A stretch of 64,000 bases of DNA from Alphaproteobacteria bacterium. GTDB taxonomy: Bacteria > Pseudomonadota > Alphaproteobacteria > Micropepsales > Micropepsaceae. Positions 47,517-55,944 of the stretch are shown here, in pieces. The DNA is taken from contig JAFBAL010000045.1 of NCBI GenBank assembly GCA_019247845.1, positions 27,460 to 91,459 on the forward strand, written 5' to 3'. How positions within the stretch are numbered: position 1 is the first letter of the stretch; every line of letters starts with the position of its first letter. Position numbers and translations under genes: made by a program. The notes beneath the pieces are model-generated. The model worked only from the letters and a program-made list of their open reading frames with translations, was not told the origin of the DNA and did no database searches.

Positions 47517-49763
47517 ATGGCGGCACTTGAGACAAAGGCGCCCGGTTGGATCGGAGCGGTGCGGGCGGCAGGGCCGTCGCGGCTGCTCCTTGCCGTCGGC
47601 CTTTTGGCGGCCCTGTCCGGCGGCCTCATCTACGCGACGCTGAAGGGCCTCATTCCGATCACCCCCACCATGAGCTGGCTGGCCGTGGTGCTGGCAGCGC
47701 TGGTGGCCGGCATCGCATGGCCGCTGGTGCGGCTGTGGCGCGAACGGCGCTCGGGCCGGGCCGGCGCGCGCCTGCACGTGCGCCTGGTCGCGATGTTCAG
47801 CGTCATGGCGGCAGTGCCGGCGGTCTTCATCGCCATCTTCGCGGTCGCGATCCTGAACCTGGGAATGGAGTCGTGGTTCTCGGCCCGCGTGAAATCGGCG
47901 ATCGGCAACGCGGTGGGCGTCGCGCACCAATATGCGCTCGAGACCACGCGCGGCATCGTCATAGACGCCGGCGAGATGGCCGACGGCATCCAGCACGACC
48001 GCTCGCTCTTCGACGAGCAGAACCACGTCAAGGTCGCCTTGATGGTCGAGAAGCTCGCCATCATGACCAACGACCGCGGGCTGATCGCCTCGTTCATCGT
48101 GGATTCCCACGGCAACGAGCTCGCCGCCAGCACCAAGCTCAAATATTCCGCCGCGCTCAAGCCGGCGGCGGCAGATTTCGGCGACGCGCGCGCGGGACGC
48201 ATCGTCGTCGACGTCGATGCCCAGGACGGCATGGTGCATGCGCTGGTGCATCTGCCGTGGCTGAACGACGCCTATCTGCTGGTCGTGCGCGCGGTCGATC
48301 CCAAGGTGTTCGGCTACTACCGCAAATCGCGCAGCGCCGTCGACGAATACACCAAGCTCGAGGAGAACCGTTCCGAAATCCAGGGCAATTTCGCGGTCCT
48401 CTACGGCGTCGTCTTCCTGGTCATCCTGACCGCCGCGATCTGGATGGGCTTGTGGCTGGCCAACGGGCTGGTCAGGCCGGTGTCGAACCTGATCCGCGCG
48501 GCGGAGCGCGTCTCCGAAGGCGACCTGAAAGCGCAGGTGACGGTCGAGCGCGACGACGACGAGATCGGCACGCTGGGCGTCGCCTTCAACCGCATGACGT
48601 CGCAGTTGAGCACGCAGCGCGCGGCGCTGATCGACGCCAACCTGCAGATCGACGAGCGCCGCCGCTTCACCGAGACGGTGCTCGCCGGCGTCAGCGCGGG
48701 CGTCATCGGCCTGGACGGCGACGGGCAGATCACCATCGTCAACCGCGCCGCGGCGCGCCTGCTCAACGCCACGCATGAGGAGATCGAGGGCCGTCACTAT
48801 TCCGAGGCCGTGCCCGAGCTGGCCGCCCTGATCCGCAAGACGATCTCCGAGCCCGTCGGCCGCGCCAGCGGCGAGGTCTCGATCAAGCGCACCGGCACGC
48901 CGCGGACCCTGAGCGTCCAGGTAACGAGCGAGCACGGGGCGCAGGCATCCGGCTATGTCGTGACCTTCGACGACATCACCGATCTGATGTCGGCGCAGCG
49001 CACGGCCGCCTGGGCCGACGTCGCGCGCCGCATCGCGCACGAGATCAAGAACCCGCTCACCCCGATCCAGCTCTCGGCCGAGCGGCTGAAGCGAAAATAC
49101 GGGAAAGAGGTCACCTCCGACCCGGAAGTGTTCAGCCAGTGCACCGACACGATCATCCGCCAGGTCGGCGACATCGGCCGCATGGTCGACGAGTTCTCGT
49201 CCTTCGCGCGCATGCCGCAGCCGGTGATGCGCCGCGAGAACGCGCAGGAATTGCTCCAGCAGGCGGTGTTCCTGCAGCGCGAGGGCAATCCGTCGATCGC
49301 CTACGAGACCAAGGCGCCGAAGGAGGCCGTGTATTTCGAGGTCGACGGGCGGCTCGTCTCTCAGGCGTTGACCAACGTCATCAAGAACGCGGGCGAGGGC
49401 ATCGCTTCGCGCATCGAGAAGGGCGACGACACGCCGGGACGCATCGTCGTGTCGCTCACCTGTGCGGACGACAAGGTCGTCTTTGCGGTCCGCGACAACG
49501 GCATAGGCCTGCCGCCGGAGCACCGTCACCGGCTGACCGAGCCCTATGTCACCACGCGTGCGAAGGGCACGGGGCTCGGCCTCGCGATCGTGCGCAAGAT
49601 CATGGAAGACCACGGCGGAGACATAGTTCTGCGTGATGCCGAAATGGGGGGCGACGAAGCGCGCGGCGCGGAGGTCCTGCTGACCTTCCCGCTGCGCCAG
49701 AAGATCGCCAAAGAGAAAGGGTTGATGGATGAGCAAGGCCGGCTTGCCGCAAACGACGTCTGA
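47517..49763 (+). CDS. ntrY: Nitrogen-sensing histidine kinase NtrY
   Basis: A 748-residue membrane kinase. N-terminal helices (LLLAVGLLAALSGGLIYATL, MSWLAVVLAALVAGIAWPL, VAMFSVMAAVPAVFIAIFAVAILNL) and a periplasmic loop lead to a further helix (VLYGVVFLVILTAAIWMGLWLANGL). HAMP (RAAERVSEGDLKAQVTVERDDDEIGTLGVAFNRM), PAS, H-box [25 protein letters not shown] and ATPase motifs (VRDNGIGLPPE, GTGLGLAIVRKIM) follow. It overlaps ntrX by 35 bases. In alphaproteobacteria NtrY/NtrX affects nitrogen use, envelope, redox and microaerobic functions. Confidence 0.95.
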   Translation: MAALETKAPGWIGAVRAAGPSRLLLAVGLLAALSGGLIYATLKGLIPITPTMSWLAVVLAALVAGIAWPLVRLWRERRSGRAGARLHVRLVAMFSVMAAVPAVFIAIFAVAILNLGMESWFSARVKSAIGNAVGVAHQYALETTRGIVIDAGEMADGIQHDRSLFDEQNHVKVALMVEKLAIMTNDRGLIASFIVDSHGNELAASTKLKYSAALKPAAADFGDARAGRIVVDVDAQDGMVHALVHLPWLNDAYLLVVRAVDPKVFGYYRKSRSAVDEYTKLEENRSEIQGNFAVLYGVVFLVILTAAIWMGLWLANGLVRPVSNLIRAAERVSEGDLKAQVTVERDDDEIGTLGVAFNRMTSQLSTQRAALIDANLQIDERRRFTETVLAGVSAGVIGLDGDGQITIVNRAAARLLNATHEEIEGRHYSEAVPELAALIRKTISEPVGRASGEVSIKRTGTPRTLSVQVTSEHGAQASGYVVTFDDITDLMSAQRTAAWADVARRIAHEIKNPLTPIQLSAERLKRKYGKEVTSDPEVFSQCTDTIIRQVGDIGRMVDEFSSFARMPQPVMRRENAQELLQQAVFLQREGNPSIAYETKAPKEAVYFEVDGRLVSQALTNVIKNAGEGIASRIEKGDDTPGRIVVSLTCADDKVVFAVRDNGIGLPPEHRHRLTEPYVTTRAKGTGLGLAIVRKIMEDHGGDIVLRDAEMGGDEARGAEVLLTFPLRQKIAKEKGLMDEQGRLAANDV

Positions 49764-51144
49764 GATCCTGATCGTCGACGACGAAGAGGACATCCGCGAC
49801 CTGATCGCGGGCATCCTCAAGGACGAGGGCTACGAGACCCGCGTCGCGGGAGACGGCGATGCGGCCATCGCCGCGGTGCGCACGCGCAAGCCGCAGCTCG
49901 TCATCCTCGACATCTGGCTGCAGGGCTCCAAGCTCGACGGCATCCAGGTGCTCGAAGCACTCAAGCGCGACTACGCCGATCTGCCCGTCGTGATGATCAG
50001 CGGCCACGGCACCATCGAGACCGCGGTGTCCTCGATCAAGAAGGGCGCCTACGACTTCATCGAGAAGCCGTTCAAGGCCGACCGGCTGATCCACGTCGCG
50101 GCGCGCGCTCTCGAAGCCGCGCGGCTGAAGCGCGAGGTCGCCGAGCTGCGCCTGCGCGCCGGCGACGACAGCGAGCTGGTCGGACAGTCGTCCGCGATCT
50201 CGCAACTGCGCCAGCTCGTCGAGAAGATCGCGCCGACCGGCAGCCGCGTGATGGTCACCGGCCCATCGGGCTCGGGCAAGGAGGTCGTGGCGCGGCTCAT
50301 CCATGCGCGCTCGCGCCGCGCCGGCAATGCGTTCGTCGCGATCAACTGCGCGACGATGGAGCCCAGCCGCATCGAGGCCGAGCTGTTCGGCGTCGAGGGC
50401 GGCGACGGGCCGCGCAAGATCGGCCTGTTCGAGCTCGCGCATAACGGCACGCTCTATCTCGACGAAGTCGCCGACATGCCGATGGAGACGCAGGGGAAGA
50501 TCCTTCGCGTGCTCGTCGACCAGACCTTCACGCGCATCGGCGGCACGCAGCGCGTCCAGGTCGACGCGCGCGTGATCTCGTCGACGACGGCGGACCTGCG
50601 CCTGGAGATCGGCGACGGCAAGTTCCGCGAGGACCTCTATCACCGCCTCAACGTCGTGCCGGTGCGTGTCCCGTCGCTGGCCGAGCGCCGCGACGACATC
50701 CCGCTGCTGGTCGCGCATTTCATGAAGCGCCTCTCGGCGGCGTCGGGCCTGCAGATGCGCGAGATCGGCGACGACGCGATGGCGGTGCTTCAGGCGCATA
50801 GCTGGCCCGGCAACATCCGCCAGCTCCGGAACATCGTCGAACGCCTCCTCATATTGGCGACCGACGACGCCCAACAGGCGATCAGTGCCGACCTGCTGCC
50901 CAGCGACCTCGGCGCCAGCGCCCCCTGGGGCGGCCAAGGCCGCGGCGACCTCGTCATCTCGATGCCGCTGCGCGAAGCGCGCGAGATCTTCGAACGCGAC
51001 TACCTCGTCGCCCAGATCAACCGCTTCGGCGGCAATATCTCGCGCACCGCGGCGTTCATCGGGATGGAGCGGTCGGCGCTACACCGCAAGCTGAAGAGCC
51101 TGGGCGTGGGCGGCAACGGCCGGGAGCAGCAGTTCAACGCGTGA
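49729..51144 (+). CDS. ntrX: Response regulator NtrX, lacking the GAFTGA motif
   Basis: A 471-residue NtrC-family regulator: receiver (EILIVDDEEDIRDLIAGILKDEGYETRVAGDG, phospho-Asp LVILDIWLQGS), AAA+ domain (Walker A VTGPSGSGKEVVARLIHARS, Walker B GTLYLDEVADMP) and a Fis-type HTH (FGGNISRTAAFIGMERSALHRKLKSLG). Where sigma-54 activators carry GAFTGA it reads ELFGVEGGDGPRKIGLFE, so contact with sigma-54 is unlikely. Many alphaproteobacterial NtrX proteins share this. It should act at sigma-70-type promoters. The gene overlaps ntrY by 35 bases. Confidence 0.95.
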   Translation: MSKAGLPQTTSEILIVDDEEDIRDLIAGILKDEGYETRVAGDGDAAIAAVRTRKPQLVILDIWLQGSKLDGIQVLEALKRDYADLPVVMISGHGTIETAVSSIKKGAYDFIEKPFKADRLIHVAARALEAARLKREVAELRLRAGDDSELVGQSSAISQLRQLVEKIAPTGSRVMVTGPSGSGKEVVARLIHARSRRAGNAFVAINCATMEPSRIEAELFGVEGGDGPRKIGLFELAHNGTLYLDEVADMPMETQGKILRVLVDQTFTRIGGTQRVQVDARVISSTTADLRLEIGDGKFREDLYHRLNVVPVRVPSLAERRDDIPLLVAHFMKRLSAASGLQMREIGDDAMAVLQAHSWPGNIRQLRNIVERLLILATDDAQQAISADLLPSDLGASAPWGGQGRGDLVISMPLREAREIFERDYLVAQINRFGGNISRTAAFIGMERSALHRKLKSLGVGGNGREQQFNA

Positions 51145-51192
51145 GGTCGTGCTGCTCGAACTCCGCTCGAACAGGCCCCGCTGAACCGGGCC

Positions 51193-51456
51193 TTACCGCC
51201 GCCGCTTCTCCGGGTTCGCATAGTGGCGCGCCACGTCGTCGGGCGAGATGCGCTTGCCGGTGGCATGCTCGATGGTGGCCGCGACCTCGGCGTCGGTGCC
51301 GCCGCGGGCGCGCAGCTTCTCGATCTCGTCGCTGAGCATCCCGATCAACGCGGGCAGGGGAAAGGTCTCGTCGCCCAGGCCGAGCCGTTTGCGCAGTTCG
51401 CGTTGCGCGGCCAGGGCCTGTTCGGTCGTGAAGGTCGTATCGTCGTCGCCGGTCAT
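51193..51456 (-). CDS. Small helical protein of unknown function
   Basis: An 87-residue, highly charged helical protein: TTEQALAAQRELRKRLGLGDETFPLPALIGMLSDEIEKLRARGGTDAEVAATIEHATGKRISPDDVARHYANPEKRRR. The last part (DAEVAATIEHATGKRISPDDVARHY) looks like a small helical DNA-related fold. It is antisense to the surrounding genes, between ntrX and the vapBC pair. No family is recognised, and the Arg-rich end suggests nucleic-acid or protein binding. Confidence 0.62.
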   Translation of the reverse strand: MTGDDDTTFTTEQALAAQRELRKRLGLGDETFPLPALIGMLSDEIEKLRARGGTDAEVAATIEHATGKRISPDDVARHYANPEKRRR

Positions 51457-51524
51457 GCGCTGCTAACGCGCGAATGCGCGATTTGCTTCGGCTTGTCAGC
51501 GCTTGTTCATGTCATTGCGTCATG

Positions 51525-51545
51525 GTATATCCCAGTGGGATATAC
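51525..51545. promoter_or_regulatory. Perfect palindromic operator of vapBC
   Basis: GTATATCCC-AGT-GGGATATAC is a perfect nine-base inverted repeat 11 bases before the vapB ATG. Antitoxins with MazE/AbrB-type N-termini bind such dyads and repress their own operon, more strongly with the toxin bound. It is the most symmetric site in the window. Confidence 0.75.
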
Positions 51546-51556
51546 AAGGCTCGCCC

Positions 51557-51787
51557 ATGGTCTCGCGCTCGACTGTGTTCAAATCCAATCGCAGCCAAGC
51601 CGTTCGCTTGCCCAAAGACGTCGCCTTTCCCGAGAACGTCCACGAGGTCGAGATCATCAAAGTCGGCAACACGCGGGTCATCAGCCCGGTGGGCCACCGC
51701 TGGGACGCATTCTTCGACGGGCCGCGCTTCTCGGAGGATTTCATGACGGACCGCGAGCAGCCGCCCATGCAGAAGCGCAAGTATTGA
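51557..51787 (+). CDS. vapB: VapB-type antitoxin
   Basis: A 76-residue antitoxin: SRSTVFKSNRSQAVRLPKDVAFPENVHEVEIIKVGNTRVISPVGHRWDAFFDGPRFSEDFMTDREQPPMQKRKY. The first 45 residues are the swapped-hairpin DNA-binding fold (SNRSQAVRLPKDVAFP). The acidic, aromatic tail wraps the toxin. It neutralises VapC and represses the operon through the palindrome just upstream. Its TGA overlaps the toxin ATG (TGATG). Confidence 0.92.
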   Translation: MVSRSTVFKSNRSQAVRLPKDVAFPENVHEVEIIKVGNTRVISPVGHRWDAFFDGPRFSEDFMTDREQPPMQKRKY

Positions 51788-52185
51788 TGCTTCAGTACAT
51801 GCTCGACAGCGATACATGCATCTATATCGGCAAAGCGTCTCCTTCGAAGTTGGTGGAACGGTTCAACCGCGTCGGAAACCAGATCTGCATTTCGACGATC
51901 ACGTTGGCCGAGCTTTTTTACGGTGTCGAGAATTCCGGCCGGCGAGCCGGAAACCTGGAGACGCTGGATGGCCTCGTCGGCCGGCTGACCGTGCTGCCCT
52001 TTTCCGCCGACGCAGCGTCGCATTACGGGCAAATATGTGTTGAGCTTCAGAAAGCGGGTACGCCGATCGGGCCTTATGACATGCTGATCGGCGCGCATGC
52101 GCGCGCTGAAGGTCTCGTCCTAGTGACGAACAACGAACGCGAGTTTCGCCGCATCACCGGACTTCGTGTGGAAAACTGGATTTGA
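51787..52185 (+). CDS. vapC: VapC-type PIN-domain ribonuclease toxin
   Basis: A 132-residue PIN toxin with the acidic active-site set: Asp in YMLDSDTCIYIG, Glu in ISTITLAELFYGVENS, Asp in GPYDMLIGAHARAEGLVLVTNN and the trailing acidic residue of NNEREFRRITGLRVENW. Such toxins cleave tRNA or rRNA when released from VapB. The 3' end overlaps dat as TTGA, so translation of an amino-acid enzyme is tied to this operon. Catalytic residues are intact. Confidence 0.93.
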   Translation: MLQYMLDSDTCIYIGKASPSKLVERFNRVGNQICISTITLAELFYGVENSGRRAGNLETLDGLVGRLTVLPFSADAASHYGQICVELQKAGTPIGPYDMLIGAHARAEGLVLVTNNEREFRRITGLRVENWI

Positions 52186-53078
52186 CTTCTCACCACTGGC
52201 CCCACCGCGCGCCTTCGGGCCGCACAGCCTATGTCAACGGCCGCTTCGTGCCGCACGGGCACGCCGGCGTGCATATCGAAGACCGCGGGTTGCAGCTTGG
52301 CGACGCCGTGTATGAGGTGTTTCTCATCCGCTCCGGCTCGCTGTGCGATGAGCCGGGGCATCTCGATCGTCTCGAACGCTCGGTCGGCGAGATCGAGATG
52401 GCGATGCCGATGGGGCGGGCAGCGCTCAGGCTGGTGATGCGCGAGCTCGTCAGGCGCAATCGGGTGCGCGACGGGTTTCTTTATCTGCAGGTGACGCGTG
52501 GGGCGGTGAAACGCGATCACCCGTTTCCGTCGGCGCCGCCGCGGCCGACGCTCATCATGACGGCGCGGCCGTTCGATCTCGCGGGCGCGAACACGAGGGC
52601 GGCCGAAGGCATCGCGGTGGTGACGCGGCCCGACGCGCGCTGGGGGCGCTGCGACATCAAGACCACGCAGCTGCTCGCCAATGCGATGGCGAAGACTGAG
52701 GCGCGGCGCGCGGGCGGGTATGAGGCCTGGCTTGTCGACGAGGAGGGTTTCGTCACCGAAGGCGCCTCGACCACGGCCTGGATCGTCGACGCCGACGGCC
52801 GCGTGATCACGCGCGCGCTGTCGAACGCGATCCTGCCCGGTGTCACGCGGCGCGTGATCCTGGAGGCGGCGGCGGAAGCGCAGATCCCCGTCGTGGAGCG
52901 GGCGTTCACGCCCGACGAGGCGAAGCGGGCGCGCGAGGCGTTCATTTCGTCCGCGTCGGGGGCCGCGGTGCCGGTGGTGACGATCGACGGCGTGGCGGTG
53001 GGAGACGGCAAGCCGGGGCCGCTTACGCGGCGGATCGCGGAACTTCATGCCATGAAGAATGCCGGAGCCGATCCATGA
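52182..53078 (+). CDS. dat: D-amino acid aminotransferase (branched-chain-type fold IV), TTG start
   Basis: A 298-residue PLP enzyme of fold class IV. Segments are TAYVNGRFVPHGHAGVHIEDRGLQLGDAVYEVFL, FLYLQVTRGAVKRDHPFP, the catalytic Lys in CDIKTTQLLANAMAKTEA and the phosphate-binding VTEGASTTAWIVD and LPGVTRRVI. It should make D-amino acids for peptidoglycan. The best start is the TTG at 52182, overlapping the vapC stop as TTGA, as no ATG or GTG lies before the conserved region. Next to ntrX and hfq this is the usual alphaproteobacterial place for dat, so vapBC was added upstream. Confidence 0.87.
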   Translation: MTSHHWPHRAPSGRTAYVNGRFVPHGHAGVHIEDRGLQLGDAVYEVFLIRSGSLCDEPGHLDRLERSVGEIEMAMPMGRAALRLVMRELVRRNRVRDGFLYLQVTRGAVKRDHPFPSAPPRPTLIMTARPFDLAGANTRAAEGIAVVTRPDARWGRCDIKTTQLLANAMAKTEARRAGGYEAWLVDEEGFVTEGASTTAWIVDADGRVITRALSNAILPGVTRRVILEAAAEAQIPVVERAFTPDEAKRAREAFISSASGAAVPVVTIDGVAVGDGKPGPLTRRIAELHAMKNAGADP

Positions 53079-53404
53079 AGCTCGCCCGCATCATCCTCTT
53101 CACCGCCCAGATGGAGGCGATGACGGCTTTCTACCGCGACGTTCTCGGCCTCAAGCAGGTGACAAACGAGAAAGGTTGGCGCGAGTTCGCGGCCGGCGCC
53201 AGTCGCGTCGCGCTCCACTCCGGCCCGCCGTCGCCCGGCCGCAAGGGGCCCAAGATCGTCTTCCATGCGAAGGACGTAGCGGCAACCCGCGCCAAGCTCG
53301 TGGCCCGCGGCGCCCGCCTGGGCAAAGTCCACCAGTTCGAGAGCCTCGCCATGTGTGACGGCAAAGACCCAGACGGCAACCCGATCCAGCTCTCCAACCG
53401 CTGA
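53075..53404 (+). CDS. VOC/glyoxalase-like domain protein
   Basis: A 109-residue single-domain VOC protein ([48 protein letters not shown], ending [15 protein letters not shown]). Two beta-alpha-beta-beta-beta units give a metal-binding fold used by glyoxalases, dioxygenases and antibiotic-binding proteins. No activity can be assigned. ATGA overlap with dat implies co-translation. Confidence 0.83.
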
Positions 53405-53510
53405 GCACCCCTTCCGGGCGCTCCAGGGCTTTCGCTCCCGCAGCAAAGGGCCGTATGCTCCTGCGACTGCTTCGCGGGGCGCGGGGCCAAGAACCGAAGT
53501 GGGCAAACCC

Positions 53511-53759
53511 ATGAGCGAAAAACAACAAAACCTGCAGGACACCTTCCTCAATGCCGTCCGCAAGTCGAAGTCGTCGGTGACGATCTTCCTGGTGAACGGC
53601 GTCAAGCTTCAAGGGAACATCACTTGGTTCGACAATTTCTGCGTGCTGCTTCGGAGGGACGGGCAAGCCCAGCTCGTCTACAAGCACGCGATCTCGACCG
53701 TCATGCCGCTGGGTCCGATCCAGCTCATGGACGCCGAGACCGTGGCCGAGACGGTCTGA
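53511..53759 (+). CDS. hfq: RNA chaperone Hfq
   Basis: An 82-residue Hfq: [71 protein letters not shown]. Sm1 and Sm2 motifs are complete, including [10 protein letters not shown] and YKHAISTV. The hexamer mediates small-RNA control of mRNAs. The ATG at 53511 gives the normal start, while the longer track ORF is not supported. The hflX frame begins at or over its stop codon. Confidence 0.97.
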
Positions 53760-55075
53760 CCTCCAAGCCCACCGACACGCGCAAGCACACCGCCTTCGTG
53801 CTCCATGTGGAGCCCAAGGCGCGCAAATCCGCGCTCGACCGCGACGCCGAGGCGCGGCTGGAGGAGGCGATCGGGCTGACCGCCGCCATCGGTCTGACGG
53901 TCGTGGGCAGCCATATCGCGCCGCTGGCGCGTCCGGTGCCGGCGACGCTCATCGGCAGCGGCAAGGTCGAGGAGATCGCGGCCGAGGCGCGGATGCTCGA
54001 GCCCGAGGTCATCGTCGTCAATGCACAGCTTTCGCCGATCCAGCAGCGCAATCTCGAGAAGGAATGGAAGACCAAGGTCCTCGACCGCACCGCGCTGATC
54101 CTTGAGATCTTCGGCGCGCGGGCGCAGACCCGCGAGGGCCGGCTTCAGGTCGAGCTGGCGCACCTGACCTATCAGCGCTCGCGGCTGGTCCGGTCCTGGA
54201 CCCACCTGGAGCGCCAGCGCGGCGGCTTCGGCTTCCTGGGCGGCCCCGGCGAGACGCAGATCGAGACCGACCGCCGCCTGATCGGCGAGCGCATCGTCAA
54301 GATCAAGTCCGAGCTCGAGGGCGTGAAGCGCACCCGCGGACTGCAGCGCCGCGCCCGCAAGCGCGTGCCGTTCCCGGTCGTCGCGCTGGTGGGGTACACC
54401 AATGCCGGCAAGTCGACGCTTTTCAACCGGCTGACCCAGGCGGATGTCCTGGCCAAGGACCTGCTGTTCGCGACCCTCGACCCGACCATGCGGGGGCTGA
54501 AGCTGCCGGGTGGCACCAAGGCCATCCTCTCCGACACCGTCGGCTTCATCGCCGACCTGCCGCACGAGCTGGTCGCCGCCTTCCGCGCCACGCTGGAGGA
54601 GGTGCTGGAGGCCGACGTGATCGCCCATGTCCGCGATGCCAGCCATGACGAGACCGAGGCGCAGAAGGCCGACGTGCTCAAGGTGCTCGCCGAGCTCGAC
54701 ATCGAAGGCGCCGATATCGAAATCCTCAACAAAATCGATCTGTTGGACGAGGATATTCGCGCAGGACTTCAAGCGCGTGGCAGGGGGAGGGAAGGGGCTC
54801 CGGTCGCCGTCTCGGCGCTGAGCGGCGACGGCCTCGACCTTCTACTCGCCCGGTTCGAGGCGCTGTTGACGCGTGACAACATCGAGCTTCGCCTGAGGCT
54901 TAGTCCGGAAGACGGCGAGGGTCTGGCCTGGGCCTACCGCCACGGCAGGGTCCGCGAGCGCCGCGACGGCGACGACGGCGTCGAGCTTCTGCTCACAGCC
55001 AGTCCACAGGATGCCGAACGCTTTTCCGCCCGATTTGGGGATAAGCTGTTGGTATGTGGACAAGACGGGGAGTAA
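53756..55075 (+). CDS. hflX: Ribosome-associated GTPase HflX, start codon unclear (possible CTG)
   Basis: A GTPase that splits stalled ribosomes. The N-domain [57 protein letters not shown] and [19 protein letters not shown] precede G1 [18 protein letters not shown]3 [17 protein letters not shown]4 LNKIDL and the G5 region. No ATG/GTG/TTG occurs where family proteins start (before [12 protein letters not shown]). The only frame-matching candidate there is a CTG overlapping the hfq TGA (CTGA). A GTG at 53798 and an ATG at 53624 inside hfq are the alternatives. 439 residues from CTG. Confidence 0.9.
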
Positions 55076-55944
55076 TCGCGGGCGCGGCGGTTGGGCCGCT
55101 TGTCGGCTCGCTTTCTTTCGCTGGGCTTCTGTCTTTCGCGGCAAGGGCCGGGGACAACCCCGCCGGCCTGATCCAGGCGATCGAGGCGCGGGCCGGTGGG
55201 CGGCTGGGCGTCGCCGCCCTCGACACCCAGACCGGGCGGCGCATCGCCTGGCGCGACGGCGAGCGCTTCCCGATGTGCTCGACCTTCAAGCTGCTGCTGG
55301 TGACGCGGGTGCTGGCCAAGGCCGACAAAGGCCAGGAGAGACTCGACCGCTGGGTCAAATACGGCAAGGACGATCTGCTCGACTATGCGCCGGTCGCCAG
55401 GGAGCATCTCGCCCAAGGCGGCATGACGGTGAAGGACCTGGCCGAGGCTGCCATCGTGTGGAGCGACAACACCTGCGCCAACCTGCTGCTCGCCGCCGAC
55501 GGCGGGCCCGCGGGCGTGACCGCGCAGGCGAGGGCGCTGGGCGACCCGGTCACGCGGCTCGACCGCAACGAGCCGACGCTCAACACCGCCATCCCCGGCG
55601 ACCCGCGCGACACGACCGCGCCTGCGGCGATGCTCGACGACATGGACCGCGTCCTGCTGGGCGACGCGCTGTCGGAGTCTTCGCGCGAGATGTTGACCGG
55701 TTGGATGATCGCCTGCCGGACCGCGCCGCGCCGCATCGGTGCCGGGCTGCCTTCGGGCTGGAAGCGCGGCCACAAGACGGGCACCGGCGCGAACGGCTCG
55801 ACCAACGACATCGCGATCTGCTGGCCGCCGGGGCGCAAGCCGATCCTGCTTACGGTCTATTTCACCGGCTCGAGCGCCGGCGACGACGAGCGCGAGGCCG
55901 CCATCGCCGATGTCGCGCGGATCGTGAGCGAGACTTTCGTTTGA
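55054..55944 (+). CDS. Class A beta-lactamase
   Basis: A 296-residue serine beta-lactamase. The leader [32 protein letters not shown] has a twin-arginine-like pair. The class A motifs are all there: nucleophile SxxK in MCSTFKLLLV (76-79), SDN (137-139), the omega-loop ExxLN in RNEPTLN (173-177) and KTG in GHKTGTGANG (241-243). The Cys before the catalytic Ser matches the position of the KPC/SME disulfide, but the partner position in KTGTG-A is Gly. It overlaps hflX by 22 bases, so it is a settled chromosomal gene. Spectrum cannot be predicted. Confidence 0.93.
   Translation: MWTRRGVIAGAAVGPLVGSLSFAGLLSFAARAGDNPAGLIQAIEARAGGRLGVAALDTQTGRRIAWRDGERFPMCSTFKLLLVTRVLAKADKGQERLDRWVKYGKDDLLDYAPVAREHLAQGGMTVKDLAEAAIVWSDNTCANLLLAADGGPAGVTAQARALGDPVTRLDRNEPTLNTAIPGDPRDTTAPAAMLDDMDRVLLGDALSESSREMLTGWMIACRTAPRRIGAGLPSGWKRGHKTGTGANGSTNDIAICWPPGRKPILLTVYFTGSSAGDDEREAAIADVARIVSETFV

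Follow-up and report, generated by a model that had tools for sequence, protein, structure and literature searches.

This locus raises two questions: how a toxin-antitoxin (TA) module came to lie between ntrX and dat, and what its presence means for the expression of dat, which begins on the stop codon of the toxin gene. The window, that is, the whole stretch of 64,000 nucleotides analyzed here, comes from an alphaproteobacterial genome (G000), and direct reading together with the ORF listing gave a head-to-tail order of ntrX, a palindrome, vapB, vapC, dat, and a small VOC gene, followed by hfq and hflX. The sigma-54 response regulator gene ntrX (49729-51144, + strand) was recognized by Pfam Response_reg, Sigma54_activat, and HTH_8, vapB (51557-51787, + strand, ATG start) by PF04014 and NF040493, vapC (51787-52185, + strand) by PF01850, NF010285, and NF047863, the class IV (D-amino-acid) transaminase gene dat (52182-53078, + strand) by PF01063 and PRK06680, and the small VOC/glyoxalase-fold gene (53075-53404, + strand) by PF00903. 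From vapB onward the genes overlap. TGATG joins vapB and vapC, which share 1 nt; at TTGA (52182-52185, + strand) the dat start TTG (52182-52184) lies over the vapC stop TGA (52183-52185); and dat runs into the VOC gene at ATGA. The initial annotation had placed vapBC in the ntrX-dat interval with the vapC stop on the dat TTG, and the coordinates, the curated families, and a direct reading of 52182-52185 bear this out.

Some 380 nt separate ntrX from the palindrome in G000, and this spacer holds an orphan 87-aa ORF divergent from vapB (51193-51456, - strand; ORF listing), with no Pfam or NCBIfam match. It was present in G000 alone among 69 genomes and may be a second lineage-specific insertion at the ntrX-dat junction or spurious.

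The module itself was readily assigned. VapB scored 111.7 bits against NF040493 (cut-off 60) and has an AbrB/MazE-type N-terminus and a REQ motif at 66-68. VapC, a PIN-domain protein, exceeded the cut-offs of NF010285, tRNA(fMet)-specific VapC (150.1 bits; cut-off 143), and NF047863 (154; cut-off 140), matched PF01850 with 61.1 bits, and aligned end to end with solved Shigella/Salmonella-type toxins (PDB relatives 6ifc and 3tnd). Its catalytic acids D7, E42, and D98, with roles and numbering from PMC3384007, are kept in G000 and in a second genome of the genus carrying vapBC at this site, G011. The family score, these acids, the AbrB-type antitoxin gene upstream, and the palindrome identify vapBC as a predicted type II TA system of the tRNA(fMet)-specific VapC subfamily. 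It shares this common family and its acids with mvpAT/vapBC of Shigella and Salmonella (PDB 3tnd, 6ifc; PMC3384007), as well as an AbrB-type VapB and an operator upstream of vapB (putative here), but here the first catalytic Asp is followed by DSD and not by DTN, and vapC by dat (and the VOC gene). Elsewhere in the genus, a vapC homologue of G004 (L156, C79:1276-1671) carries Asn where the third catalytic Asp would stand (GAHN) and is possibly inactive.

The palindrome upstream of vapB, GTATATCCCAGTGGGATATAC (51525-51545, no strand assigned), consists of perfect, fully complementary 10-bp arms around a central G (GTATATCCCA-G-TGGGATATAC), in agreement with the operator palindrome described initially and presumed to bind VapB or VapBC. 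It was the single match in the G000 genome at ≤3 mismatches, and palindromes of the same type precede related vapBC pairs in G011, G004, G067, and other families of the class. The palindrome thus appears to travel with this vapBC subfamily as a putative operator, and TATATC within it could serve as a candidate -10 element.

Dat scored 368.9 bits against the D-amino-acid transaminase model PRK06680 (cut-off 320) and fell below the cut-off of the stricter equivalog TIGR01121 (238.9/277.45). Its TTG is the only plausible start, because the next in-frame GTG/ATG codons fall inside the conserved "YVNGRFVPHG" core and because the N-terminal extension from TTG, HHWPHRAPSGR (MTSHHWPHRAPSGR), aligns with the Dat N-termini of the genus, which begin at the same place by ATG, GTG, or TTG. 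The claim that dat has no ATG or GTG alternative therefore holds, and a start further downstream, named at the outset as one of two observations that would overturn the coupling idea, is rejected on the basis of the conserved N-terminus. A Shine-Dalgarno-like GGA(A/G) lies upstream of the TTG within the vapC VENW codons (GGAA in G000, GGTGGAG in G011). At -3.3 kcal/mol the G000 site is predicted to be weak; that of G011, at -6.5, is stronger. A candidate Shine-Dalgarno sequence, GGAAGG, also occurs in the last ntrX codons of G027, a relative in which ntrX directly precedes dat, so that the upstream gene holds it in both arrangements.

To place the insertion among relatives, Dat searches over 69 genus genomes and locus retrieval yielded 55 junctions with ntrX and dat both readable on one contig. 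Only 2 of the 55, those of G000 and G011, contained vapBC. The distance from the ntrX stop to the dat alignment was below 150 nt in 43 of 55 junctions, and ntrX and dat were also adjacent in several other alphaproteobacteria, with one gene of ~1.4 kb between them in others; dat does commonly follow ntrYX, as had been proposed. The flanking genes are thus adjacent without a TA pair in relatives, and vapBC is a TA insertion in a conserved operon. Apart from the insert, gene order matches the alphaproteobacterial ntrYX-(trkA)-dat-hfq-hflX cluster, which is broken by vapBC in G000 and G011 and, in G000 only, by the orphan ORF and the VOC gene; the orphan ORF is missing from the G011 junction, and no VOC gene adjoined dat at the loci examined in relatives. 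No vapBC was present at any of 38 named alphaproteobacterial dat loci, and dat lay next to vapC at no further VapC locus retrieved by searching the genus and the class.

The same comparison, suggested in the initial annotation, confirmed the insertion but also revealed an existing overlap between the dat start and the ntrX stop at 22 of the 55 junctions, of 4 nt at 14 (5 TTGA, 5 ATGA, and 4 GTGA) and of 1 nt at 8. The remaining junctions had a short gap (21/55) or a gap of ≥150 nt (12/55), the latter including all four members of the clade of G000, G011, G035, and G013. The junctions with an ntrX/dat TTGA and no vapBC include two in the sister clade (G027 and G021). The stop/start overlap and the TTG start of dat are hence not products of the vapBC insertion, and ntrX is the ancestral upstream partner of dat. 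Since relatives lacking vapBC already show the overlap, and even the TTGA, the insertion changed the partner, from ntrX to vapC, and not the principle.

The vapBC-TTGA-dat junction recurs in the independent genome G011 (L004), where the order is ntrX, 32 nt, the palindrome GTATATCCCAGCGGGATATAC, vapB, vapC, TTGA, dat, hfq, and hflX, which speaks against chance and rules out an assembly artefact. Identity between G000 and G011 was 82% for VapB, 67% for VapC, and 77% for Dat, and 96% over the C-terminal 112 aa of NtrX. Synonymous divergence, near saturation and so to be read as rough, was 1.10 for vapB, 1.11 for vapC, 0.81 for dat, and 0.71 for ntrX, with dN/dS of 0.10, 0.21, and 0.22 for vapB, vapC, and dat, respectively. 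These ratios indicate that vapBC in both genomes is under purifying selection, and vapB and vapC dS values similar to or slightly above those of dat and ntrX, together with low dN/dS, fit an old common descent under constraint.

Whether the two modules go back to one event can be judged from two trees. The VapCs of G000 and G011 were sisters at 100/99, apart from free-standing homologues, and the tree of Dat, NtrX, Hfq, and HflX had the topology G011,(G000,(G035,G013)) with SH-aLRT 90. A single insertion would need one later loss or replacement because the locus tree joins G000 with G035 and G013, not with G011, and a search for a vapBC remnant in G035 and G013 found none. That topology, and the different inserts present in G035 and G013 at a site that takes DNA repeatedly, would suit two independent insertions of related modules at one hot spot, in G011 and G000 separately. 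We consider this quite unlikely, given the sister relationship of the two VapCs and the fact that both modules end at exactly the same TTGA, a coincidence less probable than a single gain with a single later replacement. A single old insertion in the clade ancestor, followed by loss or replacement in G035 and G013, is the simplest history and probably the actual one.

As for the joining itself, vapC ends as ENW[IV]-TGA, often TTTGA, and free-standing VapC relatives can end ATT-TGA or GTT-TGA (L161, L163). With VapCs ending in TTTGA and a TTGA at the ntrX-dat junction of relatives, both recombination sides could carry TTGA, and vapC may plausibly have been joined to dat through a microhomology of 4 nt.

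In G035 (L153) two genes occupy the gap between ntrX and dat, one of them with a PD-(D/E)XK match that is weak and below cut-off; in G013 (L154) the gap is taken by a gene whose lipase match is likewise weak and below cut-off. These unrelated inserts suggest that the site is insertion prone in this clade. TA pairs inserted in intercistronic regions have been described, for example between relA and mazG and between dinB and yafP, with cases of mazEF, yafNO, parDE, and ccd, and plastic TA insertion sites also take other DNA (PMC7167474). As at ntrX-dat, the TA pairs in relA-mazEF-mazG and dinB-yafNO-yafP of Escherichia coli lie between genes paired undisturbed in relatives (PMC7167474), and the relA-mazG site takes parDE in Salmonella just as the ntrX-dat site takes other inserts. 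The TA families and host genes differ from the E. coli mazEF and yafNO cases, and here the downstream start overlaps the toxin stop. TA insertion between operon genes is thus already described, and the twist at this locus appears to be that the upstream gene overlapping dat was exchanged; among the open-licence papers searched, none dealt with a vapBC-dat arrangement.

Taken together, we consider it likely that a vapBC module was inserted at the ntrX|dat junction with vapC replacing ntrX as the overlapping partner of dat. A mobile, self-regulated module of operator, vapB, and vapC would have entered the ancestor of a small clade, probably in a single event and precisely at a junction where the dat start commonly overlaps an upstream stop; the vapC 3' end would have joined dat at TTGA, leaving the dat start still on an upstream stop, and purifying selection would since have kept the module in G000 and G011. 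VapBC complexes should repress at the palindrome, and a vapB-vapC-dat(-VOC) message would be made from the VapBC-repressed promoter when VapB is depleted or VapC is in excess, probably with some added read-through from ntrX. We infer that dat is most likely translated from vapC by termination-reinitiation at the TTG or by initiation dependent on upstream translation.

The proposal that dat is coupled to vapBC stands in part. The dat start overlaps the upstream stop as in translationally coupled pairs, and overlapping gene pairs were coupled in 13 of 14 experimentally tested cases (PMC6728339), but overlap and TTG are not consequences of the insertion, as the 22 overlaps of dat with ntrX, five of them TTGA, indicate. 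Judged from the gene arrangement, co-expression of dat with vapBC is likely. A promoter scan of 51140-53600 returned no sigma-70-type site, vapB included, and was uninformative for this GC-rich genome; because no site was found even at vapB, the scan does not tell which promoter drives dat. RNA folding at the junction was no stronger than in shuffles (z +1.3), leaving a junction hairpin acting as a translational switch without support, and no known RNA family was found in the region. Synonymous-site constraint was lacking at the vapC 3' end (69% identical codons at sites with identical amino acids, versus 42-70% in the rest of vapC), which gives no sign of a hidden regulatory signal there.

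The insertion could also be neutral, with dat expressed mainly by ntrYX read-through or from an internal promoter and TTGA being inherited spacing. The overlap of dat with its upstream gene is common in relatives, no convincing terminator was found after ntrX, and read-through from ntrX into dat is possible, especially in G011, where it could dominate given the 32 nt between ntrX and the palindrome. However, some 380 nt and the opposite-strand ORF intervene in G000, and with the only dat start sitting on the vapC stop, vapC translation at least should matter; we regard a wholly neutral insertion as unlikely. Somewhat unlikely, too, is a promoter capture in which dat moved from an NtrX-coupled to a VapB/VapC-controlled unit, its start type unchanged, with Dat rising when VapC exceeds VapB and TTG initiation in turn susceptible to the toxin's destruction of initiator tRNA.

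In a further reading, selection would have favored vapBC at this position for placing toxin release and a D-amino-acid/cell-wall enzyme under common VapB control, derepression raising Dat at VapC excess. The anatomy permits it, two species as diverged as 77% identity in dat both retain the arrangement with its palindrome and TTGA, and conditional cooperativity reaches a downstream gene in ccdAB-rsdB (PMC5065971). Against it, vapBC-dat occurs in 2/55 genus junctions, at 0/38 named alphaproteobacterial dat loci, and at no other VapC locus searched; unrelated genes fill the same gap in G035 and G013, as fits a permissive site; and operon-inserted TA pairs are regarded as functionally unlinked in the review literature (PMC7167474). 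The G000 genome also encodes glutamate racemase (murI, 215.9 bits; cut-off 146.65) and alanine racemase (alr, 256.2 bits; cut-off 168). With these racemases present, neither D-glutamate nor D-alanine has to come from Dat alone, and Dat need not limit peptidoglycan, so the earlier suggestion of dat as a control point of peptidoglycan supply is weak, and a tie between toxin activation and that supply via dat is speculation. We hold selection for such a linkage to be very doubtful; under the preferred reading of an exchanged partner, the insertion was most likely tolerated through preserved dat expression and not through a need to link toxin and D-amino-acid metabolism.

The closest regulatory parallel is ccdAB of pSLT, which controls rsdB further down its operon, rsdB being partly expressed without the TA promoter (PMC5065971). 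This six-gene ccdAB_ST operon likewise has a TA promoter followed by non-TA genes at short spacings, with a 4-bp overlap further down, but it consists of plasmid genes with 1 nt from ccdB to the next gene, and its downstream protein level was shown to follow the TA complex, whereas vapBC-dat involves a chromosomal metabolic gene and is known from sequence. If the coupling is true, vapBC-dat would be a natural chromosomal counterpart of ccdAB-rsdB. The locus is a clean case of a TA module settling in a core operon without breaking it, the start/stop overlap preserved and the upstream partner swapped. A recent review describes the way in which TA systems enter genomes as unknown (PMC7167474); with relatives that keep the site empty and a clade that has filled it with several different inserts, this junction gives a tangible place for studying TA integration.

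At two further loci (L041 and L084), the stop of a vapC homologue overlaps the start of a following ORF, as ATGA (123 aa) and GTGA (107 aa), respectively, both putative genes. Downstream of hflX in the window, a class A beta-lactamase-like gene was identified at 55054-55944 (+ strand; PF13354, 139 bits).
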